Source: Aeromicrobium panaciterrae
Lineage (GTDB): Bacteria; Actinomycetota; Actinomycetes; Propionibacteriales; Nocardioidaceae
NCBI RefSeq assembly: GCF_031457275.1
Contig: NZ_JAVDWH010000001.1
Location: forward strand, 930,001-994,000
DNA: 64,000 bases
Direction of reading: 5' to 3'
This document shows positions 6,884 to 61,900 of this stretch, piece after piece. Made by a program: the position numbers and the translations under genes. Numbering within the stretch: position 1 is the stretch's first letter; each line of letters starts with the position of its first letter. The notes under the pieces are model-generated. The model was not told the origin of the DNA. It ran no database searches and worked only from the letters and a program-made list of their open reading frames with translations.

Positions 6884-7443
6884 GCGGATTCCTCGCGGAG
6901 CCTGGGCTCCGTTGCGTTCTGGGGGCGGATGCCGTGCTTGTCGGCGAAGAACTCGCGGACGATGTCCATGTCGGCCCCTACGTCATCGGACGCGTGGAAG
7001 GTGGGCCCGAATCCCATCCTCTTGGTCGGCGGGTCAAAGAACGCCAGCGTGATGGGCAGGCCAGTCTCCTTCGACAGCCGCAGGAAGCCTGACTTCCAGT
7101 ACTCGCCCTTACCGCGGGTGCCTTCGGCCGCGATGATCAGCCGGAACGGCTTGCCGGTGCCAGCCTCGGCCACCAGATCCTTCACGACGGTGCTTGCGTT
7201 GTCGCGGTCGAGCGGGACTCCGCCGAATGCCTTGAGCACCCAGCCGAGCGGGCCTTTGAAGAGCTGCTTCTTCACCAGGACGCGAGGGTGCTCGCCGCCG
7301 TGCCACATCACGAGCAGCATCGTGATGAAGTCCCAGTTCGACGTATGAGGTGCGCCGACGAGGATCCCCGTCTGCGGCACCTCGCCGACCATCTTGTAGC
7401 CCATCAGGCGTACAACCGTCCGGGCCAAACCCTTGCGCATCAT
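6880..7443 (-). CDS. PlsC-like 1-acyl-glycerol-phosphate acyltransferase family protein
   Basis: Probable membrane-associated acyltransferase of the PlsC/LPLAT family, acting on phospholipid or glycolipid precursors. The acyltransferase motif HX4D is present as HTSNWD (His33, Asp38) and motif III as EGTRGKGEYWKSGF. At 187 residues it is short, lacking the N-terminal helices of typical PlsC, like the small glycerol acyltransferases found beside mfd. The ATG at 7443 has TAGGGT ending 6 bases upstream, suggesting a leaderless mRNA. The acyl acceptor cannot be told from sequence. Confidence 0.82.
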   Translation of the reverse strand: MMRKGLARTVVRLMGYKMVGEVPQTGILVGAPHTSNWDFITMLLVMWHGGEHPRVLVKKQLFKGPLGWVLKAFGGVPLDRDNASTVVKDLVAEAGTGKPFRLIIAAEGTRGKGEYWKSGFLRLSKETGLPITLAFFDPPTKRMGFGPTFHASDDVGADMDIVREFFADKHGIRPQNATEPRLREESA

Positions 7444-7508
7444 GGCGCAACCCTAGGGGAGAGCATGTGCGGCCTCCGCAGGCATGTGGCCGTGGGTAAT
7501 CTGTGGGC

Positions 7509-8153
7509 ATGCTCAACCGCGCACGCGCAGCTGTCCTCATCGTCGCCGCTCTGACGCTCGCCTCATGCGGGAGCATTCATCCCGGTGATGCAGCCGTCGT
7601 CGACGATCATTCGATCTCCATGACGAAGTTCGACAAGACGGCGCGCATCTACTGCAAGCTCACCCTGCTGTCCGCCCAGGAACAGGGCATGGCGTCGGTT
7701 CCCAATGCGGACGTTCGGCGCCAGACGATCTCCGATCTGGTCACGATTTACGTGGCGCGTGACCTCGCCAAGGAAAAGGGCGTCTCGGTCGACAAGAAGC
7801 AGTACGAGTTGTCGGGAGACCAGGTCAAGGAAGTCGGAACAGCGTTCCCCAAGGGCGACGACGCGGAGCATGTCGAGTTTGCGATTGAGAACTCCCAGGA
7901 GATTGCCGCGATCGCCGTGGCTCTCGCGGAGAAGTCGACCGGCGTCACGGCCACCAACGAGAACTCGAGCCAGCTGGCCGAAGCGGGCCACGCAGCGATC
8001 ATCGCGGCGTTCAAGGACCACGACGTGAAGTTCGCGCCTCGATTCGGCCTGAGCAGTAGCTTGAAGGAACTCGGCCCGACTGGATCCCTGTCGGTGCCCG
8101 AAACGGACGGTCCGGCTGAGGACCAGCTTCCGGCAGACCAGCGCTGCGCCTGA
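7509..8153 (+). CDS. Lipoprotein with SurA N-terminal-like domain
   Basis: Exported lipoprotein of 214 residues. A short basic start and hydrophobic segment end in the lipobox LASC (Cys20). The mature part (SIHPGDAAVVDDHSISMTKF) resembles the N-terminal domain of SurA/PrsA-type chaperones, without a peptidyl-prolyl isomerase domain. I chose ATG 7509 over the in-frame GTG 7503 because TAATCT at 7497-7502 would place the transcription start at the ATG. It overlaps mazG by one base (TGATG). A role in folding secreted proteins is inference. Confidence 0.8.
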   Translation: MLNRARAAVLIVAALTLASCGSIHPGDAAVVDDHSISMTKFDKTARIYCKLTLLSAQEQGMASVPNADVRRQTISDLVTIYVARDLAKEKGVSVDKKQYELSGDQVKEVGTAFPKGDDAEHVEFAIENSQEIAAIAVALAEKSTGVTATNENSSQLAEAGHAAIIAAFKDHDVKFAPRFGLSSSLKELGPTGSLSVPETDGPAEDQLPADQRCA

Positions 8154-8869
8154 TGCGCATTGTCGTGCTGAGCCCTCGGGTCGCTCCGGGCATTCTGACG
8201 CTCGCGACCTGGGACGCTTTGCGCGAGGCATCTCGCGTGGTCGCCACCGAGAAGGATCTGCACGTACACGCGATCATCGCGTCGGGCATTGACGTCGAGA
8301 TCTCCAGCGACGCGCCTACGCTTGAATCAAACACCGTCGTTGATGGTGTCGTATGGATCGCACCAACAGGTGACGCGGAATGGGCGCGTACGGTCGCCGA
8401 CGACCTGATGTCTGGTGACGAGGTCGGCAAGGTCGAGGTCATCTTCGGCTCGTACGACGTGCCCGGCGCGAGCGTGATCGACCTGGTTGAAGTGATGGAT
8501 CGGCTTCGCCGCGAGTGCCCGTGGACTGCCGAGCAAACTCACGCCACCCTGGCTCCATACGTGCTGGAGGAGGCGCAAGAGACGTTTGAGGCGCTGCAGT
8601 CGGGGGACTCAGACCATTTGCGCGAAGAGCTGGGTGACCTCTTGATGCAGGTCGTGTTCCACGCCCGCATTGCTGAGGAAGCGGAAGGCTGGGATGTCGA
8701 CGACGTCACGGCCGGCATTACCGCCAAGCTCGTGCGACGCAATCCGCACGTGTTCGCGCCCGAGACGCTCGACCACCTCCCGACCACGTCAGCAGAGATC
8801 GACGCGCAGTGGCAGCGAATCAAACAGCAAGAGCGTTCAGGCGAGATCTCGCCTCTCCACGATCACTGA
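8153..8869 (+). CDS. mazG: MazG family nucleoside triphosphate pyrophosphohydrolase
   Basis: Hydrolyses (d)NTPs to NMP and pyrophosphate, usually to clear aberrant nucleotides. The product has 238 residues. The first ~100 are an actinobacteria-type N-terminal extension. The MazG domain starts at MDRLRRECPWTAEQTH, with acidic metal-binding helices EEAQE and REELGDLLMQVVFHARIAEE, then KLVRRNPHVF. One MazG domain is present rather than the two of E. coli. The start overlaps the lipoprotein stop. It sits between mfd and eno, the usual actinobacterial position. Confidence 0.93.
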   Translation: MRIVVLSPRVAPGILTLATWDALREASRVVATEKDLHVHAIIASGIDVEISSDAPTLESNTVVDGVVWIAPTGDAEWARTVADDLMSGDEVGKVEVIFGSYDVPGASVIDLVEVMDRLRRECPWTAEQTHATLAPYVLEEAQETFEALQSGDSDHLREELGDLLMQVVFHARIAEEAEGWDVDDVTAGITAKLVRRNPHVFAPETLDHLPTTSAEIDAQWQRIKQQERSGEISPLHDH

Positions 8870-8919
8870 CGCCGTCAGCCCGGGCGAGGCAATCTCCGCC
8901 AGGATTTGGCGACGACTAG

Positions 8920-10236
<1,317 letters not shown>

Positions 10237-44389: not shown

Positions 44390-45643
44390 TCAGGCGGCTT
44401 GGCGGTAGTGGTTTCTTCGTCGTCGGAGTGGGTGGTTGTGGCGGTTGGTGAATTGGAAGCCGTCGACGGCGTTGCCGGTGATGTTGAGTAGGCCTCGGTG
44501 GAGCAGGTGGTGGCATCTCACGCAGAGTCCGACGAGGAGGTCGAGGTCGGTGGGTCCTCCGAGTGACCACCAAATGGTGTGGTGGATTTCGAGGTGGGTG
44601 TGGTTGCAACCTGGTGTGGCGCAGACACCCTTCTGTCGGGCGATGACTGAACGGCGCTGCAACAGAGTGGGTTGGTAGCGCTCGGTGCCGGCGTTGAGGA
44701 TCTGTGCCTGACGGGCGCCGCCGTGTTGTTTCATCAGGAATGCGGTGAAGTCGGACACGCACAGGAAGTACATGAGCAGGTTGGGGCCGATGGCACCGTG
44801 TCCGGCGAGCTTGGCTGGTTCAAGCCGTGGCATTGGTTCGGGGATCAGGTGTGGTTGCTCGGTTTTGGCTTTCACGTGTTCGACAGAAGCTTGCAGGGTG
44901 TCGGCATCCACGAACACTGACATGTGAGGCCGTACGCCCTTGTCCGATGGGAGACCGCCCGCGAGGACCGCGGTCAGCAGGTCATCAAGGCCCTGAACCC
45001 GACGTTCAGACCCAGAGCGGACATCGTCTTTGTCTCGGGGTGCTGACACCGAATCGAGGACCTTCTTGAGCTTCGACCCGGTGACGGTGTTGAGGAAACC
45101 ACTCACATGCCAACCGTCGGGGACGGCGTCGACGGTGAAGTCTTCGCGGTCCATGCCTCGTTCCCAGGCCGCGTCGAGATCCTCGGGATGGACTGTGTCC
45201 TTCAAATGTTTGACAGCCTCGAACAACTCGCCTGGTTCGTGATCTTTGGCGACTTGGACGAAGACGTCCTCAAACTGTCGCATCGGCTCCAACCCGACGT
45301 GCCTAAGCCCGTAGACGAACACCCGTACGTGCGCGGCGCTGACTTCTCCTGTCAGGGCAGCATCAGCCAACAGCGGCAGATCACGGAGGGCGGTCACGTT
45401 CTTGACCAGGGCAGTGGCTTGGCCGGCGTTCATCCGCAGCTCGTTGCGCACCCAGGTGTTGAGGGTCGACGCGCCGTCGAGCTCGAAATCCTTGGACGAC
45501 TCCAGCTTGGCCAGGAGCACAGCCTCCTGAGCATCAATTGCGTCTCGTGCTGCATGTAGTGCAAGAAGCTGAGAGCGCGTGTCACCCGAGACGAGCGTCT
45601 GCGCGGCGGTACGCATCGCGTCGATCGTCGGCTGCGGAGTCAT
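44390..45643 (-). CDS. DUF222 / HNH endonuclease signature protein (13E12 family)
   Basis: A 417-residue protein. The N-terminal ~300 residues are the helical DUF222 domain (QLLALHAARDAIDAQEAVLLAKLESS...STLNTWVRNELRMNAGQATALV). The C-terminus is an HNH nuclease: CATPGCNHTHLEIHHTIWWSLGGPTDLDLLVGLCVRCHHLLHRG, with two CxxC pairs and the histidines. ATG 45643 has TACGGT ending 6 bases upstream. Such genes exist in many copies in actinobacteria, some tied to REP13E12 elements, but no repeat ends or recombinase are seen. The last ~15 residues are Arg-rich. Confidence 0.9.
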   Translation of the reverse strand: MTPQPTIDAMRTAAQTLVSGDTRSQLLALHAARDAIDAQEAVLLAKLESSKDFELDGASTLNTWVRNELRMNAGQATALVKNVTALRDLPLLADAALTGEVSAAHVRVFVYGLRHVGLEPMRQFEDVFVQVAKDHEPGELFEAVKHLKDTVHPEDLDAAWERGMDREDFTVDAVPDGWHVSGFLNTVTGSKLKKVLDSVSAPRDKDDVRSGSERRVQGLDDLLTAVLAGGLPSDKGVRPHMSVFVDADTLQASVEHVKAKTEQPHLIPEPMPRLEPAKLAGHGAIGPNLLMYFLCVSDFTAFLMKQHGGARQAQILNAGTERYQPTLLQRRSVIARQKGVCATPGCNHTHLEIHHTIWWSLGGPTDLDLLVGLCVRCHHLLHRGLLNITGNAVDGFQFTNRHNHPLRRRRNHYRQAA

Positions 45644-45975
45644 GCTCCAACCGTACTCGAACGGGTGTTCGATGACCAGTGGAAAACCCTGTGAATTCAG
45701 TGAAAAGCAAAGATTCTTATCCACAAATGGAGCCGCCGTCGGGACTGTCCACAGAACCAGCCGGCGCCCTTGTGTGTGCGCCCTTCGGCGAAGCCGACGA
45801 CACACAACAAGAGACCCATTGTTAACACGGGGTCGGGCGTGTCTTCCCCAAAAAGTCGGTTTCGCAGGCATACGTTCGAAGTGTGTTGACGCTCGCCCCT
45901 GAGCAACGAGATCTGGCCCTTTCCGCCGAGTAAGAGCCGGCGCAGGGCGCGCGCGGGCTCGTATGGGAGACAGCT
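45644..45975. other. 332-bp intergenic region between DUF222 gene and phoH
   Basis: No gene is visible. It contains a perfect TTATCCACA DnaA-type box (45717-45725), two near-matches (about 45679-45687 on the minus strand and 45745-45753), and a long stem (TTGTGTGT 45770-45777 with ACACACAA 45800-45807). The left part is AT-richer than its surroundings. TTGACG near 45896 could be the -35 of a phoH promoter. Confidence 0.5.
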
Positions 45976-47292
45976 GTGGCTGCTAAGAAGAGCACGAGCC
46001 CGGACCGCCGCACGTACGTCCTGGACACCAGTGTCCTGTTGGCGGACCCCAATGCGGTCAATCGTTTCCATGAGCACGAAGTGGTCATACCCGTCGTGGT
46101 GATCACCGAGCTCGAAGGCAAACGGCACGACCCGGAACTCGGCTACTTCGCCCGCAGCGCGCTGCGCTTCCTCGACGATCTGCGCGTCCAACACGGAACG
46201 CTCGACAAGCCGTTGCCGATCGGTGACGAAGGCGGAACGATCCGCGTCGAGCTCAACCACACTGATTCCTCATCGCTGCCGTCCGGCTTCCGCCTCGGCG
46301 ACAACGACACACGGATCCTCTCCGTCGCCAAGAACCTCGCTGACGAGGGCTGCATTGTCACGATCGTGTCCAAGGACCTGCCGATGCGCGTCAAGGCATC
46401 GGCCGTGGGCCTGGTTGCGGAGGAATACCGCGCCGAGCTCGCTCTCGAGTCTGGCTGGACCGGAATGCGCGAGATCGAGGTCGAGAGCGTCGACCTCGAC
46501 ACGTTGTACGAGACCGGCATCCTTGAACTTGATGAGGCACGCGAACTGCCGTGTCACACCGGCCTCGTTCTCGTCTCCGACAAGGGCAGCGGCCTCGGTC
46601 GGATGACGGCTGACAAGCAGATCCAGCTCGTACGCGGCGATCGCGATGCGTTCGGCATCCATGGCCGCTCGGCCGAGCAGCGTGTTGCTCTCGACCTGCT
46701 GCTTGATCCCGAGATCGGGATCGTGTCTCTCGGCGGTCGAGCCGGCACCGGCAAGTCCGCCATGGCTCTCTGCGCAGGGCTTGAAGCAACGATGGAACGC
46801 GGTCAGCACAAGAAGGTCGTCATCTTCCGACCCCTGTACGCGGTGGGCGGCCAAGAGCTTGGCTACCTCCCGGGAAGCGAGTCCGAGAAGATGGGGCCGT
46901 GGGGCCAGGCTGTCTTCGACACGCTCGGCGCCGTCGCCGCGCCGGCCGTCATCGAGGAGATCCTCGACCGCGGAATGCTCGAAGTGCTCCCGTTGACTCA
47001 CATCCGCGGCCGTTCGTTGCACGACTCTTTCGTCATCGTCGACGAAGCACAGTCGCTGGAGCGCAATGTGCTCCTGACGGTGCTCTCGCGAATCGGTGCC
47101 AACTCCAAGGTCGTGCTCACCCACGATGTGGCTCAGCGCGACAACCTTCGAGTCGGTCGCCACGACGGTGTCGTCGCGGTGGTCGAGAAGCTCAAGGGTC
47201 ACCCGCTCTTTGCCCATGTCACGCTGACTCGCTCCGAGCGCTCGCCGGTCGCCGCTTTGGTGACCGAAATGCTCGAAGACGTCACTCTCTGA
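45976..47292 (+). CDS. phoH2: PhoH family protein with N-terminal PIN domain (PhoH2)
   Basis: A 438-residue PIN-PhoH fusion. The N-terminal PIN RNase domain shows [15 protein letters not shown] and the later acidic residues in [14 protein letters not shown]. The C-terminal RNA helicase/ATPase domain has Walker A GRAGTGKS (254-261), Walker B region [11 protein letters not shown], and HDVAQRDNL. Such proteins act as sequence-specific RNases/helicases in mycobacteria. The start is GTG 45976, with GGGAGA upstream. No separate antitoxin PhoAT-like ORF is obvious directly before it. Confidence 0.94.
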
Positions 47293-47355
47293 CAGAGGGG
47301 TCCAAGAACGCGATATCCGCCTGAACGCTGCCCTCTCCTGTGGCAGAGTGACGGC

Positions 47356-48579
47356 GTGAGCGTTCGAGGGAGACGAACCGCGGCCTTCGGCCTCGTGTTT
47401 GCCCTGCTCGCAGCATGTGGCGGCAACGCGAAGCCGGAGTCCACGGTCACGCTCAATTGGTATGTCGGCCCGGATCGGATCGACGCTCAGGCGTTGGCGA
47501 CGTCGTGCAACACCGCTGACTACCGGATTGTCGTCCAGGAACTGCCGAGGGACGTCGACGACCGGCACCAGACTCTCGTACGACGGCTGGTCGCCAAGGA
47601 CACCTCAATCGACCTTTTGAGCCTTGATTCTGCATTCACGGCGGAGTTCGCCGAGGCGCAGTTCCTGGCGCCTGTTCCCGAGGACCTGATCCCGATCTAC
47701 AGCAAGGACATCGTGCCTGCCGCCCTTCAGGCTGCTACGTACGAGGAGGCGCTCGTGGTCGCGCCCTGGTGGTTCGACCCGCAACTCCTTTGGTACCGCG
47801 GCAACATCGCCGAGCGGGCTGGCCTCGACACGACCAAGGCAGTGACCTGGGACGCGCTGATCGCCGGCGCCCAGCGCCTGGGAGTCACAGTGCAGTTTGA
47901 CGACCAAGACGGGTCGGGGCTCAGCGAGTGGGTCAACGCCCTCATTGCGGGCAGCGACGGAGAGCTCATCGCCGGTACGGGTCGCAACGCCAAGGTCGGC
48001 CTAGATTCTGACGCAGGCCGCTCGGCCGCTGGCGTCGTGAAGTTCTACAACGAAGCCAAAGTCGGACCCGGTCCTTCGCGCAGTGCTCTCGAAGCCTTTG
48101 CGGCCCCAAATGGTGGCTTCCTCCTGGCACCCAGCTCGGTCATCTCCGATCCCGCCGTCGCCGGAGTTGCGGCAGACATGGGCTGGGCGCCGTACCCGAT
48201 GACGGGCACGACGAGCGTCTCGCCGTTGGCCGGAGTCGGGCTCTCCGTGCCGTTGTACGCACCGCATACCGATCTCTCCTACAAAGCCATCTCGTGCCTG
48301 ACCGCTCCTTCGGTCATGCGGGCGATCATGAGCAGCGCGGGCCACAGCTCGAGCCGAATCACGACGTACGACGATCCGGCCCTGGGCACGACCTTCCCGA
48401 TGGCGCAGGTGGCCAAGGCAGCCGTGACGTCAGGTCGCGCCGTACCCACAACGCCTTACTGGAATCTCGTTCGACGTGCGATCGATGACTCCTGGCTACC
48501 GTTGGCCGGCGTCAACGACGAGACCCCCAAGAGCTCTCAACGGATGGCCGCTGCGAGCCTGCGAGGTGATCTCCCGTGA
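47356..48579 (+). CDS. ABC importer solute-binding lipoprotein
   Basis: A 407-residue family 1 extracellular binding protein. A signal ends in lipobox LAAC (Cys21). The mature part has WYVGPDR, the typical FDPQLLWYRGNIAERAGL and NDETPKSSQRMAAA, like sugar-binding LpqY/MalE proteins. The start GTG 47356 has CAGAGT ending 6 bases upstream. It is coupled by GTGA to the first permease. The substrate is probably a sugar or disaccharide by family, which is inference. Confidence 0.9.
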   Translation: MSVRGRRTAAFGLVFALLAACGGNAKPESTVTLNWYVGPDRIDAQALATSCNTADYRIVVQELPRDVDDRHQTLVRRLVAKDTSIDLLSLDSAFTAEFAEAQFLAPVPEDLIPIYSKDIVPAALQAATYEEALVVAPWWFDPQLLWYRGNIAERAGLDTTKAVTWDALIAGAQRLGVTVQFDDQDGSGLSEWVNALIAGSDGELIAGTGRNAKVGLDSDAGRSAAGVVKFYNEAKVGPGPSRSALEAFAAPNGGFLLAPSSVISDPAVAGVAADMGWAPYPMTGTTSVSPLAGVGLSVPLYAPHTDLSYKAISCLTAPSVMRAIMSSAGHSSSRITTYDDPALGTTFPMAQVAKAAVTSGRAVPTTPYWNLVRRAIDDSWLPLAGVNDETPKSSQRMAAASLRGDLP

Positions 48580-49499
48580 AGTTCGTGAAGAAGCCGGCTT
48601 TCGTGAGAATGCCGAGCGTGAAGAAGCCAGCTGGCCTGAAGATGCCGGCGTTCAGTCTGCCGGCAGGGCCGAGGTCGTTGGCGGGATGGACGTGGCTCGC
48701 GCCGGCAATGGTGGTGCTCCTCGCGATCACTGCCTGGCCCATTGGACGTGCCCTGTGGCTGTCGATGTCGTCGTACTCGCTCACCAACCCCGAAGCGCGA
48801 AAGTCCGTGGTATTCGACAACTACGCGGAGATCCTGACCAACAAGACCTGGTGGTTCGCCATTGCGACGAGCCTCATCATCGTGGTCCTGGTTGTCGCAG
48901 TGCAGCTGGCACTCGGTTTCGCGTTCGCCCTGGTCCTGCGTCGCCTGTCGATTCTCTGGCCTGTCACTCGCGTGCTGGTGCTGCTGCCGTTCGCCCTGGC
49001 CTCCTTCGTCACCGCCGTTGTCTGGCGCGACGCGGCGACCACGGGATTCCTCGCGAGCTGGTTCCGGCTCGACAGCGTGGGCCAGCTCGACCAGCTCGCG
49101 GCGGTCAGTCTGGGCGAGATCTGGCGCGGTACGGGGATCGTCGCGGTCATCCTCCTGGCGGGCCTCACCCAGGTATCAAGCCGGCTGCACGCAGCCGCAG
49201 TCGCCGACGGTGCAACCGGCTGGCAACGCTTGCAGCGCGTGATCCTTCCGGTCATGGGACCCGCGTTCGCCGTGGCAACCGCCTATCGCGCCTTGGACGC
49301 CTTCCGTGCCATCGAGGGCCCCTTGCTCGTGGATGAGCCGGGTGCCGACGTTCATACGGCTCCCCAGCTCATCTGGGACACCACGTTCTCGTCCTTTGAG
49401 CTCGGACTCGGCGCTGCGATGTCGGTCGTGCTGCTCGCCATCACCGCGGTGCTCGGTGTGCTCCTCGTACAGCTGTTCCGCGTGAGGAGGGTCGTATGA
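48576..49499 (+). CDS. ABC sugar-type permease 1
   Basis: A 307-residue inner-membrane permease of the MalF/SugA type with six predicted helices and the EAA loop ADGATGWQRLQRVILPVMGP. The first ~31 residues carry an unusual tandem repeat (KKPAFVRMPSV and KKPAGLKMPAF), a basic, proline-rich cytoplasmic tail. It overlaps the binding-protein gene and the second permease by 4 bp each, so the genes are co-translated. Confidence 0.92.
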   Translation: MKFVKKPAFVRMPSVKKPAGLKMPAFSLPAGPRSLAGWTWLAPAMVVLLAITAWPIGRALWLSMSSYSLTNPEARKSVVFDNYAEILTNKTWWFAIATSLIIVVLVVAVQLALGFAFALVLRRLSILWPVTRVLVLLPFALASFVTAVVWRDAATTGFLASWFRLDSVGQLDQLAAVSLGEIWRGTGIVAVILLAGLTQVSSRLHAAAVADGATGWQRLQRVILPVMGPAFAVATAYRALDAFRAIEGPLLVDEPGADVHTAPQLIWDTTFSSFELGLGAAMSVVLLAITAVLGVLLVQLFRVRRVV

Positions 49500-50488
49500 G
49501 CACCGTCGCCTTCGTCCCGTCCGTCCGGTCGCGCCTATGGGCCTCAGGCATCTCATTCGCGCTCGGCTTCACCCTCGCCAACTACGGCATCCTGATGGTG
49601 GTTCGCCCCGACCAGTGGTTGTGGCTCGCAGCGGCTGCCGTGCTGATGCTCACGGGTGCTGCCGGCATCCTGTTTGCGGATACCAACCGCTCAGTCTCGT
49701 TCTGGGCCGTGCTGGGCCTCGAAGTGTTCGCGATGTTCACGCTGTTGCCCCTGCTGTGGACCTTCACGGTCGCCACGACGCCGGCCGAGCTGACAGCCCG
49801 ATCGCTGTGGCCGAACGAGGTCTCGTGGGAGACGTTTGGCGATGTGCTCGGCTCGAGCAGCATGCGGCGGGCCGCGCTCACCTCAGTATTGGTCTCAGGT
49901 GTGGCGACGCTGATCTCGATCCCATTGGCCATCGCCGCGGCGTACGCGCTCACGCGACTCAAGGTCAAGGGTGGCCGTGTTGCGTACGCGTTCGTCATCT
50001 CGGTGCTGCTCATCCCGCTAGTCGCCCTCGCTGGACCGATCGCCGACCAGGTGATCTCCCTCGATCGCTTTGGATCTCGCCTCGCGCTCATTCCGCCGGC
50101 ACTGCTGATCACCCTTCCGCTGTCCATCTGGTTGTTCGTGACGTTGTTCAAGCGAGCACCCTGGACGCTTGGTGACGCCGTACGTGCCGACGGTGCGAGT
50201 CGCCGCCAGTGGTTCACACGTTTTGTCGTGCCTGCTCTCGGCCCCGGCATCCTCCTGATCGCCATGCTCGTGTTCGTGGTCGGCTGTCAGGACTACGTAC
50301 TCGGTGCCGCCCTGTCGACGACGGATGCGCCGCTGCCAGCATCGCTGCTGACGGCTCGTGGCGATCTCGACACGGCCTCGTCGGCGACGATTGCCGCTGC
50401 GGGATTGCTCTGGGCTGTGCTGCCGGTGATTTTGCTTCTCGTGGCACCGCGCAGGATCCACCAACTTCTGGGAAGGTCATACCGATGA
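49496..50488 (+). CDS. ABC sugar-type permease 2
   Basis: A 330-residue permease of the MalG/SugB type. The EAA loop is VRADGASRRQWFTRFVVPALGP. It has extra N-terminal helices (three hydrophobic segments before residue 90) in addition to the six core helices, so it is longer than typical MalG by about 50 residues. It overlaps its neighbours by 4 bp each (ATGA). Confidence 0.92.
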   Translation: MSTVAFVPSVRSRLWASGISFALGFTLANYGILMVVRPDQWLWLAAAAVLMLTGAAGILFADTNRSVSFWAVLGLEVFAMFTLLPLLWTFTVATTPAELTARSLWPNEVSWETFGDVLGSSSMRRAALTSVLVSGVATLISIPLAIAAAYALTRLKVKGGRVAYAFVISVLLIPLVALAGPIADQVISLDRFGSRLALIPPALLITLPLSIWLFVTLFKRAPWTLGDAVRADGASRRQWFTRFVVPALGPGILLIAMLVFVVGCQDYVLGAALSTTDAPLPASLLTARGDLDTASSATIAAAGLLWAVLPVILLLVAPRRIHQLLGRSYR

Positions 50489-51684
50489 CGTCGATCGAGC
50501 TCCGCAATCTGACAGTGGCTGGCCGTGGTGCCCGCCCGCTGCTCGACGACGTCAGCATCACCGTCCCGTCGGGCTCGACGTTGGCGATCATCGGGCCCTC
50601 AGGCGCAGGCAAGAGTCTGCTGTTGCGCGTGCTGGTCGGACTCGAAGATCAGTCGTTCGGCGAGATCCTGCTGGACGGTGTCGACGTCACCAAGGCCAAC
50701 CCGCGAACCCGTGACCTGTCCATGGTGTTTCAGGACTATTCGCTCCATCCGCAGCTCGACGCGTTCGACAATCTCGCATTCTCGTCGACTCTGAGACGCG
50801 AGAAGTCAGTGCAGAGGTTCCGTCGCGGCACCCTCGACAAGAGGGCCATCTCGGACCGGGTCAACTCCGTCAGCGAGTTCCTGGCACTGACTGACCTGCT
50901 TGAGCTCAAGCCCGCCGATCTTGATGAGGCGCAGCGCCAGCGCGTTGCCCTCGGACGTGCTCTCGTACGCGATGCGGCTGCGTACCTGTTCGACGACCCG
51001 TTCTCCAAGCAGGCGCCTCGCTCGCGCCCGCACGTACGTTCTGTGACGTCGCAGTGGCAGACCGAGGCGGGCCGTACGTCGATCTTCACGACGTCGGACA
51101 TCGCTGAGGCGCTGACCCTCGCGGATCGCGTTGCCGTTCTGCACCAGGGGTTTGTGCACCAAGTTGGCACTCCGCGCGAGCTCTACGAAGCGCCTAAGGA
51201 CATGTTCGTAGCCGGATTCCTCGGCTCGCCGCCGATGAACCTCGTGCCGGCCCGGCCGAGCGGAAGTCAGCTGGTCATGCCGCTGGCGACGATGTATCTC
51301 GACGACGAGCTGGCCAAGCGAATCGGCGACCGCGACCTTGTGGTCGTGGGCATCCGCCCGGAGGACTGCCAGGAGTCGTCGAGCCCGGCAGCCGCAACCG
51401 TCACCGACAAGGTCGAGTTCACCACCCGTATCGACGACGTCGAGTGGCAAGGCAGCACCCAGCTCGCGTACCTCGGCTATGACACCGATCCAGAGGTCGA
51501 AGCGCGCTTGAGCGAAGTCGAGGATCTGCTGGACTTCGACCTGTTCCAGAGCTTCGTCGTCGCTGAGCTTGCGGCGGAGAGCACGCTGAAGGCCGGTATG
51601 TCGATCCGCGTCGTGATCCCGCGATCGAAGATCAACGTGTTCGATCCTGAGACGGGCGAAAACCTCTCGCTCCCCCAAGACTGA
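50485..51684 (+). CDS. MalK/UgpC-like ABC ATPase with degenerate catalytic motifs
   Basis: A 399-residue ATPase subunit of the importer. The N-terminal NBD has an intact Walker A GPSGAGKS (37-44) and Q-loop (Gln83). The signature LSGGQ is replaced (ADLDEAQ, 144-150). Walker B has DD (170-171) where DE is usual, the D-loop reads SKQAP, and the switch His is Ser204 (TTSD). The C-terminal half keeps the MalK-type regulatory/TOBE region (ELYEAPKDMFVAGFLGSPPMNLVPA). ATG 50485 overlaps the permease stop. The longer frame from 50209 is not coding. Confidence 0.88.
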   Translation: MTSIELRNLTVAGRGARPLLDDVSITVPSGSTLAIIGPSGAGKSLLLRVLVGLEDQSFGEILLDGVDVTKANPRTRDLSMVFQDYSLHPQLDAFDNLAFSSTLRREKSVQRFRRGTLDKRAISDRVNSVSEFLALTDLLELKPADLDEAQRQRVALGRALVRDAAAYLFDDPFSKQAPRSRPHVRSVTSQWQTEAGRTSIFTTSDIAEALTLADRVAVLHQGFVHQVGTPRELYEAPKDMFVAGFLGSPPMNLVPARPSGSQLVMPLATMYLDDELAKRIGDRDLVVVGIRPEDCQESSSPAAATVTDKVEFTTRIDDVEWQGSTQLAYLGYDTDPEVEARLSEVEDLLDFDLFQSFVVAELAAESTLKAGMSIRVVIPRSKINVFDPETGENLSLPQD

Positions 51685-51686
51685 GC

Positions 51687-53018
51687 ATGGATCGCCGACT
51701 CTATTCGTCGCGAATGGGGATCCCGGCGGGTCTCGGCGTGGTGTTCGGATTCGCCTACGGCGTCATTTCGCTCGCACGGTTTAACCAGTTCGCGCTCTCA
51801 TCCTGGGACAACGCCATCTTCGAGCAGGCGGTTCGGGGATATGCACATTTCGGTGCGCCGACGATTGACGTACGCGGCGCCGGGTTCAACCAGCTCGGTG
51901 ATCACTTCTCGCCGATTCTGGTGTTGATCGCACCGTTCTACCGGCTGTTCCCGTCGGCGCAGACGATCCTGATCGCCCAAGCTGTCTTGCTGGCAGTCTC
52001 CGTCGCGATCATCGCGGCGCTGGCGATCCGTCATCTCGGCATGCTCGTCGGGGTGGCGATTGGCCTCGCGTACGGCGCGTCATTCGGCCTGCTTGCCGCC
52101 GTTGAGGTCGACTTTCACGAGGTCGCCTTCGCAGCACCATTGCTCGCCTTGGCGGGTGCCGCATACGTGGAGCGGCGCTTCGATGCGGTCGTCGTCTGGT
52201 CCTTGCCGCTGATCCTGGTCAAGGAGGAGTTCGGGCTCACGGTCGCGGTGATCGGTGGCGTGCTGTGGCTCGCGGGCGAACACCGGCGCGGGGTGGTTCT
52301 CGGCGCCGTCGGCCTGATCTCCGCGGTGTTCATCATCTTCGTGCTGATGCCCTCAATTGCTCCGGACGGCTCCTACACACACGCTGGTTCGCTCGGCGGT
52401 GAGCGCGGCATCTTCCCTACATTGTTCGACGAGGTCGACCGCAAGGCCGCGACTGTGCTGCTGACTATCGCCATCACGGGTCTTGCTGCCCTGTTCTCGC
52501 CGTGGCTACTGCTGGTGCTGCCAACGTTCGCATGGCGGTTCGCGGGTGACAACGCGTACTACTGGGGCACCGAGTGGCACTACTCGCTCGTGCTGATGCC
52601 GATCGTGTTTGTCGCGATGATCGACGCGATGAAGCGCTGGCCGCAGCTGCGCTGGGCGACGCTCCCGGCGCTGGTGGTCACGGGATTCATGCTGGTCAAC
52701 TCGCCGTTGGTCGCGCTGACCGAGTCGGAGACGTATGCCGAGTCGCAGCGTGGCACCGAGGCTCGCGCTGTGCTTGCGCTGATTCCCAAGGGAGCGAGCG
52801 TCGAGACCGACATCGGACTGATGACTCATCTGACGACCGACAACACGGTCTACTGGCTCGGCACACCCGGCAACCCGCCGCCGGAGTACGTCCTGTTCGA
52901 CACGGCGTCCAACATCGGCTCGCCCGTGGACGCCGTCGCGTACGCGCAGGACAAGTACGGCGGAGAGTACGAGCTGCTGTTCGGCGGGGGCGGCTACTTT
53001 CTGGCACATCGGCTCTAG
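51687..53018 (+). CDS. DUF2079 polytopic membrane protein
   Basis: A 443-residue protein with about ten hydrophobic helices. The family start (LARFNQFALSSWDNAIFEQAVRGYAHFGAPTIDVRGAGFNQLGDHFSPIL) and the acidic VEVDFHEVAFAAPLLALA mark DUF2079, a group with a GT-C glycosyltransferase-like layout. It starts 2 bp after the ABC ATPase stop, so it belongs to the same transcript. Its link to transport is unknown. Its stop shares CTAG with the LLM gene. Confidence 0.87.
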   Translation: MDRRLYSSRMGIPAGLGVVFGFAYGVISLARFNQFALSSWDNAIFEQAVRGYAHFGAPTIDVRGAGFNQLGDHFSPILVLIAPFYRLFPSAQTILIAQAVLLAVSVAIIAALAIRHLGMLVGVAIGLAYGASFGLLAAVEVDFHEVAFAAPLLALAGAAYVERRFDAVVVWSLPLILVKEEFGLTVAVIGGVLWLAGEHRRGVVLGAVGLISAVFIIFVLMPSIAPDGSYTHAGSLGGERGIFPTLFDEVDRKAATVLLTIAITGLAALFSPWLLLVLPTFAWRFAGDNAYYWGTEWHYSLVLMPIVFVAMIDAMKRWPQLRWATLPALVVTGFMLVNSPLVALTESETYAESQRGTEARAVLALIPKGASVETDIGLMTHLTTDNTVYWLGTPGNPPPEYVLFDTASNIGSPVDAVAYAQDKYGGEYELLFGGGGYFLAHRL

Positions 53019-53890
53019 AGCTTCGCGGCCTCCAGCGGCTTGAGTACGTCGTTGGCAAAGCGCTGGATACCGTCCACTTTCTGCTCCAGGCTGCACTCGA
53101 GCCCGTGGTAGTACGCCCACGGCATCGTCCACACATCCGTGACTCCGACCTCCTCGGCGGCGGCGAACTGCTCGGGGAGGAACGCGTCGGTGAGTGCCGT
53201 GATGAAGCGGAAGTCGCCGTCACGACCGAGTTCGTCGCGGATCTCCGACAGCCGGCGGGCGTGCTTGCCGGCCTCTTCGGTCGAGTACAGGTCCCCGATC
53301 CAGCCGTCGTGGCGGGCGGCTCGACGCATCCCTGCCTCGGAGAGGCCTCCGACGTAGATCGGGATCCGCGCCGTCGGCGTCGGCTCCATCACCAGCCGCG
53401 GCGTCGGATAGAAAGTGCCCTCGAACGAGTTCCACCCCGGCGACCACAGCTCGGCGAGTAGGTCGAGTGCCTCGTCGGTGCGCTTGCCTCGGGTGCCGAA
53501 GTCCTGACCCATGAGCTCGAACTCCTCGCGGCACCAGCCGACGCCCACTCCGAAGGCCACCCGATTGCCGGACAGAGCCGCGACCGTGCCGACCGCCTTC
53601 GCGACCTGATACGGACTGCGTAGCGCCGTCACGTACACAGAGGTGTAGAAGTGGATGTCCGTGGTCACCGCAGCCATCGCACCTGCCAGCACCCATGGGT
53701 CTGGCCATTCAGCCGAGTGTTCCCAGCGTCGCTTGCCGTCCGGGGTGTACGGGTAGGGCGTGGAGAGCGTCTCCAGGTCGACCACATGGTCGGGGATCGA
53801 GATGGCGTCGTACCCGCATTCGTCGGCGACTCGGGCGAGGGTCAGGAGCTCGTCAACGGGCTGAAAGGCGACCGTGATGGAGAAGCGCAT
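53015..53890 (-). CDS. LLM class F420-dependent oxidoreductase
   Basis: A 291-residue TIM-barrel oxidoreductase of the luciferase-like family: EHSAEWPDPWVLAGAMAAVTTDIHFYTSVYVTALRSPYQVAKAVGTVAALSGNRVAFGVGVGWCREEFELMG is characteristic. F420 dependence is inferred from the actinobacterial subgroup. The substrate is unknown. TAGTGT ends 6 bases before the ATG (leaderless). Confidence 0.9.
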   Translation of the reverse strand: MRFSITVAFQPVDELLTLARVADECGYDAISIPDHVVDLETLSTPYPYTPDGKRRWEHSAEWPDPWVLAGAMAAVTTDIHFYTSVYVTALRSPYQVAKAVGTVAALSGNRVAFGVGVGWCREEFELMGQDFGTRGKRTDEALDLLAELWSPGWNSFEGTFYPTPRLVMEPTPTARIPIYVGGLSEAGMRRAARHDGWIGDLYSTEEAGKHARRLSEIRDELGRDGDFRFITALTDAFLPEQFAAAEEVGVTDVWTMPWAYYHGLECSLEQKVDGIQRFANDVLKPLEAAKL

Positions 53891-61173: not shown

Positions 61174-61749
61174 TCAGGGGCGGCGTACGACGTACCCGCT
61201 GCTCCAGATCTTGTGCTTGCCGACGCGGGTGCCCGACTTCTGGGCTTCCCACATCTTGCCGCCACCGGCGTAGATCGCCGAGTGGTAGGCGCGACCATTG
61301 CTGATGAAGATCAGGATGTCGCCCTTCTTCTTCTTGCTCTTCGAGATGTGCTTGCCCTTGAGCTGAGCTCCCGACGTGCGACCGACCTTCTTGCCGGACT
61401 TCTTGTAGACGTACTGGACGAGTCCAGCGCAGTCAAAGGAGCCGGGGCCGTTGGCGCCGTACTTGTACGGGTCGCCCTTCTGCTTGCTGGCCCACTTGAT
61501 GACTTTCTGGGCACGCGTGGGCTTCGGCTTGGGCTTCGGCTTGGGCTTCGGCTTGGGCGTCGGCTCATCCGTCTCGGCTGGAGGCGGTGCCGGTTCCGTC
61601 GCTTCCGACGCGGACGCCGGAGTCAGGAGTGCGGAGATGAGGTTGGGCGACGCAGGAGCGGTCTCGGCTGAAGCGGGTCCAGTGAGGCCAACAAATGCGA
61701 TGGACGATGCCAGCAGAGCGCAGGCAAGAGTACGTGAACTGTTGCGCAT
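61174..61749 (-). CDS. NlpC/P60 peptidoglycan endopeptidase
   Basis: A 191-residue secreted Cys peptidase. The signal peptide ends near residue 27 (GPASAE). An Ala/Pro/Glu-rich linker and a Lys-Pro repeat (KPKPKPKPKPKP) precede the NlpC/P60 domain: VIKWASKQKGDPYKYGANGPGSFDCAGLVQYVYKKSG with catalytic Cys in DCAG, and HSAIYAGGGKMW with the His. The putative ydaO riboswitch is directly upstream, tying wall remodelling to c-di-AMP. The ATG 61749 is preferred over 61764. Confidence 0.93.
   Translation of the reverse strand: MRNSSRTLACALLASSIAFVGLTGPASAETAPASPNLISALLTPASASEATEPAPPPAETDEPTPKPKPKPKPKPKPTRAQKVIKWASKQKGDPYKYGANGPGSFDCAGLVQYVYKKSGKKVGRTSGAQLKGKHISKSKKKKGDILIFISNGRAYHSAIYAGGGKMWEAQKSGTRVGKHKIWSSGYVVRRP
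61519..61566. repeat. 12-bp tandem repeat encoding the Lys-Pro linker
   Basis: The unit GGGCTTCGGCTT occurs three times exactly (61519-61554), followed by a diverged fourth copy. On the minus strand it encodes Lys-Pro pairs in the linker of the NlpC/P60 protein. Repeat number may vary between strains by slippage. Confidence 0.85.
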
Positions 61750-61756
61750 GGATTCC

Positions 61757-61900
61757 TCAAGCACGCTTGCGAAAGATGACCTGTCGGGTTCAGGCGCGAG
61801 GTTGCCTGTCGAATTCGATTCACCCCAAGGCTCCGAGGAGCCGAACTGCCGGGTCTTCCGTGCCCATCACGGGTTCGATTTCTGCGGTCCTGATGGGCCT
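61757..61900 (-). promoter_or_regulatory. ydaO-type (c-di-AMP) riboswitch candidate
   Basis: On the strand of the NlpC/P60 gene the leader reads, in order, AAATCGAACCCG..., GGAAGACCCGGCAGTTCGGC, TTGGGGTGAATC, CGCGCCTGAACCCGACAGG and TCATCTTTCGCAAGCGTGC. These are the conserved blocks of actinobacterial ydaO-yuaA riboswitches, which sit before rpf and NlpC/P60 genes. It ends about 8 bases before the ATG. The exact 5' end is uncertain and may reach ~61960. Confidence 0.85.

Follow-up and report, generated by a model that had tools for sequence, protein, structure and literature searches.

A putative pseudo-ATPase under selection in an LpqY-SugABC-like operon of Aeromicrobium, probably retained for sensing or scaffolding

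The window analyzed here is a stretch of 64,000 nucleotides from Aeromicrobium panaciterrae (NZ_JAVDWH010000001.1, positions 930,001 to 994,000), and its source genome is a single contig of 2.82 Mb that is 98.6% complete. Within the window lies an operon encoding a binding lipoprotein, two permeases and an ATPase, with searches of the binding protein, the first permease (PermA) and the ATPase against solved structures leading to LpqY-SugABC (Table 1). Each gene of the four overlaps the next by 4 bases, the start ATG of the ATPase gene overlapping the stop codon of the upstream permease gene, and a DUF2079 gene follows 2 bases on; given these overlaps and this gap, a single transcript is likely. 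A search for a sigma-70-like promoter in 47200-53200, which carries little weight, found none. The earlier note, made from the sequence alone, had described an operon with a binding lipoprotein and two permeases, which we confirmed and extended by the DUF2079 gene. The order phoH-SBP-PermA-PermB-ATPase-DUF2079 recurs in 21/21 named loci, and fumC lies behind the operon in 19 of them, the contigs of the other two ending sooner. Between uppS and phoH, the window also contains an HNH/DUF222-like gene, recognized by eye (44390-45871, minus strand); it was matched in only two of the 21 named loci, L060 (67%) and L067 (76%), and may therefore be mobile. Farther downstream, a c-di-AMP riboswitch match (Rfam RF00379, 41.5 bits; 61749-61896, minus strand) stands at the 5' end of an open reading frame (61174-61764, minus strand) that by eye encodes a cell-wall hydrolase of the NlpC/P60 type; such an arrangement is usual in actinobacteria.

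Table 1. Features of the operon, by window position
Feature	Position	Strand	Evidence or remark
LpqY-like solute-binding lipoprotein (Pfam SBP_bac_1)	47356..48579	+	7cae_E of LpqY-SugABC complex, 6.5e-31
SugA-like permease (PermA)	48576..49499	+	7cad_A, 2.4e-48; BPD_transp_1 26.1 bits, cut-off 26.4
Second CUT1-type permease (PermB)	49496..50488	+	BPD_transp_1 24.6 bits, under cut-off
Degenerate SugC/MalK-type ATPase (pseudo-ATPase), 399 aa	50485..51684	+	Pfam, solved-chain search, ortholog alignment, model
Walker A GPSGAGKS, residues 37-44, kept in window copy	50593..50616	+	Lys absent in 5/33 orthologs
ADLDEAQ (residues 144-150) replacing LSGGQ region	50914..50934	+	Ser-Gly-Gly in 0/33 orthologs; Ser alone in one row
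Walker B Asp170 kept; Asp171 for catalytic Glu; D-loop changed to SKQAP (174-178)	50992..51018	+	Residues 170-178
Ser204 for switch (H-loop) His	51094..51096	+	His in 0/33 orthologs
DUF2079 membrane protein, 2 bases after ATPase gene	51687..53018	+	Pfam 8.4e-49; predicted GT-C glycosyltransferase fold

The ATPase belongs by descent to the MalK/SugC (CUT1) type, combining an ABC ATPase domain (ABC_tran, PF00005, 2.6e-25) with a MalK-type OB/regulatory domain (OB_MalK, PF17912, 6.6e-8), both above the Pfam cut-offs; the NCBIfam UgpC model scored 271 bits, below its cut-off of 432. The nearest solved chain by sequence was SugC (8ja7, 2.9e-95), and the structural model (pLDDT 88.4, pTM 0.86), which predicts an intact fold, was also closest to SugC (TM 0.86). 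The protein had previously been labeled MalK-like; its domains justify this label, but the nearest solved relative is SugC of LpqY-SugABC rather than MalK. Of the residues that define an active ABC ATPase, the window copy has the Walker A Lys and the Walker B Asp and lacks the LSGGQ signature, the catalytic Glu, the switch His and the D-loop Asp. Since it keeps this Lys and Asp, it may bind nucleotide, a point against the pseudo-ATPase reading. It also retains the Q-loop Gln at Q83. These residues agree with those listed in the earlier note, which had further argued for substitution and against misalignment or a frameshift. This argument is borne out by alignment with canonical relatives (25 in one alignment), where the altered residues occupy the canonical motif columns, and by 33 orthologs sharing the loss of the signature and the His. 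Furthermore, the A-loop aromatic is absent: position 13, a Tyr in the solved SugC chain that we take to be the A-loop residue, has no Tyr, Phe or Trp in 33/33 orthologs (Gly 22, Ala 6, Thr 2, His 1, Ser 1 and one gap). The window copy also has a 10-residue insertion at about residues 106-115 (50800-50829), modeled with pLDDT <50, that none of the 16 further members of alignment A1 has.

In a profile search covering 294 family genomes taken from a larger group, the degenerate type (scoring at least 541 bits, the next match being 404 bits) was present in 32/49 Aeromicrobium genomes and in one other (G052), which is filed under another genus and was taken as the same lineage. With two peptide patterns we also scanned one genome each of 84,980 species and obtained 43 loci, of which 21 were of the degenerate type (52-78% identity) and the other 22 were weaker matches (at most 43%), mostly from Bacillota. 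The 61 sequences collected reduced to 33 distinct orthologs, each 379-405 aa long and with an open frame, on which all motif counts are based. None has the signature Gly-Gly or the switch His, the latter being replaced by Ser in 21, Asn in nine, and Thr, Gly or Ala in one each; thus the intact motifs in relatives that would have suggested an artefact were not found among them. The D-loop Asp occurs in one ortholog (L156) and the catalytic Glu in five, where it may have been retained or regained; these five count against the pseudo-ATPase reading. The Q-loop Gln is present in 21/33 and absent in 12, the Walker A Lys is present in 28/33 and the Walker B Asp in 32/33. In the five orthologs L025, L026, L027, L119 and L031, Arg replaces the Walker A Lys, and the four of these included in the tree form one clade. 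In this tree of 46 rows, the 21 degenerate sequences make a single clade (100/100) whose stem is 1.4 changes per site long. The first branch within it is L156, where the D-loop SxLD and the signature Ser are preserved. This position would match the expectation of stepwise decay, with a root that is unsure given the long stem. A sequencing artefact, frameshift or pseudogene, for which nothing speaks except the odd motifs, has a negligible probability and was rejected on the 33 distinct orthologs with open frames, their single clade and a dN/dS well below 1.

To quantify selection, dN/dS was calculated by the Nei-Gojobori method. Among the 528 pairs of degenerate-ATPase orthologs, the 60 closest gave 0.05-0.30, and the window ATPase compared with its nearest ortholog (80% identical) gave a dN/dS of 0.147/0.999. 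The binding protein and the permeases are also constrained (0.04-0.39 in nine pairs). In aligned blocks, dN/dS of the ATPase fell below that of the binding protein and of PermB in 9/9 pairs, and below that of PermA in 6/9, the exceptions being L067/L069, L061/L062 and L077/L078; this order argues against a vestigial subunit. The values for DUF2079 (0.07-0.24) are similar to those of the ATPase, and those for phoH (0.01-0.17) are below them in 9/9 pairs. In three genome pairs, canonical SugC was lower in all (0.064, 0.081 and 0.118 vs 0.130, 0.156 and 0.237 for the degenerate ATPase). The pairs compared are non-independent. The higher values relative to phoH and canonical SugC count against our favored reading. 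The constraint is also visible in individual columns. Of 153 columns that are invariant in the canonical proteins, 64 are unchanged in 30 or more of the 33 degenerate rows, and at 27 no degenerate row has the canonical residue. Conversely, 29 columns are fixed (at least 32/33) for a residue present in at most two of the 25 canonical rows; many of these are mild changes, and they include Gln176 in the D-loop, Trp191 and most of a C-terminal FDLFQxF stretch. Judged from its sequences, the degenerate ATPase reflects neither an error nor gene decay, and reads as a selected pseudo-ATPase that has spread through much of the genus.

The variability of the nucleotide-binding site bears on whether the protein could still hydrolyze ATP. 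For a hand-chosen set of 23 nucleotide-contact columns, the 33 degenerate rows had a mean entropy of 1.07 and the 25 canonical rows one of 0.00. The remaining columns of the ATPase domain gave 0.88 vs 0.45, and the C-terminal part 1.06 vs 1.05. As the canonical set is less diverse, the comparison within each set is the one that counts, and by that comparison the slowest columns of the family have turned faster than average in the degenerate type. The earlier note had offered a new hydrolysis mode as one option. In such a mode, the homodimer would hydrolyze ATP or at least cycle it slowly, with Asp171 or another residue as the base. The window copy would supply Walker A, Q83 and Walker B Asp170 for such a mode, and Glu stands at 171 in 5/33 orthologs. 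However, the signature Gly-Gly, the His and the aromatic at position 13 are gone in 33/33, Q83 is lost in 12 orthologs, and we consider the option quite improbable, given that variability in the domain is higher at the nucleotide-contact columns than elsewhere and that five orthologs lack the Walker A Lys (Lys43). The losses hit the two halves of the composite site in the same chain, the Walker B Glu and the His on one side and the signature on the other, so a homodimer would have no intact site. This agrees with the earlier expectation of a poorly active homodimer, and normal ATP hydrolysis is very probably absent.

The same geometry bears on an asymmetric heterodimer of one degenerate and one canonical subunit. 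One-sided degeneracy is well known in exporters, as described in the available text of PMC7756269, and in the fused importer ATPases RbsA and NupO, in that of PMC11466899. Here, by contrast, both halves of the site are damaged in one and the same chain, so no partner completes a whole canonical site; pairing with a canonical subunit would also leave none. Together with the absence of a canonical SugC partner from three genomes, this makes the heterodimer highly improbable. With no intact site in either the homodimer or the mixed pair, the complex most likely no longer pumps by ATP hydrolysis.

We then considered other ATPases that could power the permeases, using canonical SugC as the query with matches at E <= 1e-60 and calling canonical SugC at 1e-160 or better. 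Canonical SugC was present in 29/32 genus genomes carrying the degenerate gene, so borrowing could happen in most species; G016 and G182 have a partial canonical SugC only. In the two regions inspected (L158 in G008, and L180 in G009, a genome without the degenerate gene), the canonical gene belongs to an operon of four genes, the proteins of which share 31-41% identity with those of the degenerate operon. In G117, the canonical SugC gene (G117:C15:112409-113569, minus strand) has one in-frame TAG and the degenerate paralog is open; the TAG is possibly a canonical gene loss in progress or an assembly error. The SugC query did not find canonical SugC in the window genome (G000), G014 or G164. 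G164 has another CUT1-like ATPase (57%). In G014, with 39 of 67 candidates scored, the degenerate gene was the only match at E <= 1e-60, and this copy also lacks the Walker A Lys. In the window genome, the query matched the degenerate gene and one ATPase, L002 (49% identity), which lies beside its own permease pair; the 17 permease-domain matches of this genome, read from coordinates, form nine sets, and every set has an ABC ATPase match no farther than about 2 kb away. Of the 17 Aeromicrobium genomes that lack the degenerate gene, five carry canonical SugC, nine have a 55-57% identical SugC and three gave no match.

These distributions weigh on the possibility that a canonical ATPase from another locus drives the permeases, leaving the degenerate protein as a vestigial or regulatory extra subunit. 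Multitask ATPases such as MsmX are known to serve several CUT1 importers, according to the available text of PMC8603345 and PMC11466899, and the EAA-loop D, G and P of both permeases are kept in 24/24 loci. These residues and the conserved lipobox Cys of the binding protein (24/24 operon loci) are expected of a working importer and also count against a non-pumping role. On the other hand, G000 and G014 have no canonical SugC-type ATPase, and a lent ATPase is therefore no general answer. We regard a multitask lender as unlikely; going by gene content, a lender would not be needed in general, and borrowing of an L002-like or more distant ATPase is a possibility. The option in the earlier note that the importer works with another ATPase is weakened by the lack of a canonical SugC-type ATPase in the window genome and G014. 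Of the three options in the earlier note, a non-pumping regulator fits best. The missing EAA-loop Glu of PermA was also weighed as evidence of decay, and discounted because this Glu is not conserved in canonical relatives either (E in 2/5).

The binding protein has changed at its ligand site. We mapped the trehalose-contact columns Asp80, Asn134 and Arg404 through an LpqY alignment. The equivalent of Asp80 is kept in 22/24 binding proteins of the degenerate operon; Asn134 is replaced by Asp or Glu, and Arg404 is absent, in 24/24. The trehalose-contact set Asp80, Asn134 and Arg404 is retained in five canonical paralogs and is not complete in the degenerate operon. In mycobacterial LpqY, Ala at Arg404 abolished and Ala at Asn134 strongly weakened trehalose binding, as reported in the available text of PMC7949145. 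From these changes and the alanine effects, the ligand has probably changed, and the lipoprotein probably binds something other than trehalose.

The DUF2079 neighbor is predicted to be a GT-C glycosyltransferase. Its model (pLDDT 85.9) has a GT-C membrane fold, and all 10 Foldseek matches at E <= 0.001 were GT-C enzymes (TM by query 0.43-0.54, 10-14% identity), including ALG12, AftA, the C-mannosyltransferase DPY19 and oligosaccharyltransferase (OST) subunits. No paper was found for the term DUF2079 in the open-access literature searched. The protein is present in 48/49 genus genomes, whether or not the operon is, and can therefore do without the operon, which counts against the favored reading; on a DUF2079 tree of 29 rows, operon presence needs two changes, in line with one gain and one loss. 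We compared the DUF2079 regions of nine operon-lacking genomes for phoH and importer neighbors. In four of them (L176, L177, L178 and L182), phoH and DUF2079 are neighbors 0.6-2.9 kb apart. Four others (L173, L174, L175 and L179) have no phoH near; in these, DUF2079 and a canonical SugABC-type importer are divergently oriented and about 4.6 kb apart; the ninth (L181) is a short stretch. In L176 (G009), an open reading frame between phoH and DUF2079, divergent to DUF2079 (7359-9305, minus strand), is by eye a second GT-C/ArnT-type glycosyltransferase. Within 4013-14067 of L173, alpha-glucosidase-like and CotH-like genes, assigned by eye, stand between the canonical importer and DUF2079. A functional link between canonical importer and DUF2079 in the four regions was rejected: with what by eye is an alpha-glucosidase-like gene beside the importer in L173, the DUF2079 neighborhood may be incidental.

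Taken together, we favor the following course of events. The importer operon of LpqY-SugABC type would be a second, paralogous operon in an Aeromicrobium subclade, acquired via duplication or transfer. The signature, the switch His and the adenine-stacking aromatic would have disappeared from its ATPase before the divergence of the known orthologs. The catalytic Glu, the D-loop Asp, the Q-loop Gln and the Walker A Lys are gone from most or some of the lineages. Purifying selection has meanwhile continued to act on the fold and on the C-terminal regulatory domain. The lipoprotein would bind an extracellular ligand, and the permease/pseudo-ATPase core would relay the ligand state or hold the complex together, with the GT-C glycosyltransferase encoded directly behind as a possible partner. 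That the complex has a non-pumping function we consider probable on balance, and, with similar moderate confidence, that the fixed pseudo-ATPase works in a ligand-sensing or scaffolding complex. A direct partnership with DUF2079, suggested by gene order and tight spacing, is less likely than not. We also entertain, as a speculative and rather doubtful extension, that the dead importer acts as a transmembrane receptor or scaffold controlling DUF2079 as a polyprenyl-phosphate-sugar glycosyltransferase, so that an extracellular ligand would regulate envelope glycosylation.

In ABC proteins, a degenerate ATP site is usually interpreted as the inactive member of a pair that functions as a whole. 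In Aeromicrobium, the sole ATPase subunit of a whole importer operon appears dead on both sides, yet the operon is kept across much of the genus, and two genomes keep it without a canonical SugC-type ATPase. This retention suggests a job other than sugar pumping, and the operon offers a natural setting for finding out what the other parts of an ABC importer can do without ATP hydrolysis, in a complex whose genes stand beside a DUF2079 membrane protein. No paper on a complete sugar importer with its sole ATPase degenerate was found among the open-access papers listed, judged by title and opening of the abstract (in two of the searches 20 of 504 and 15 of 27 matches), which is weak evidence of novelty as most subscription papers lay outside the search. 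Compared with known systems, the closest is the LpqY-SugABC trehalose importer (8ja7, 7cad), which gave the best solved match by sequence of the binding protein, PermA and the ATPase, and whose SugC is the nearest fold to the ATPase model. Unlike it, the Aeromicrobium operon has an ATPase without the catalytic and signature residues and a binding protein with Asp/Glu for Asn134 and without Arg404; it is most likely a retooled LpqY-SugABC-like operon that carries a selected pseudo-ATPase, with sensing or scaffolding as the favored role. ABC transporters with one degenerate site (exporters, and RbsA and NupO of Bacillus subtilis) similarly show loss of the signature and of Walker B/His residues in a conserved protein, but they keep one canonical site, whereas a single ATPase gene in Aeromicrobium would give two sites degenerate to the same extent. 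CUT1 importers that lack an ATPase of their own (UspABC and MsmX clients), as described in the available text of PMC8603345 and PMC11466899, share operon permeases that lack a working ATPase; in contrast to these, Aeromicrobium keeps a full-length dead ATPase under selection, also where a lender is not obvious. Finally, the protein resembles pseudoenzymes in general, as characterized in the available text of PMC10211241, in that the fold is kept, catalytic residues are lost and clade-specific positions are conserved.
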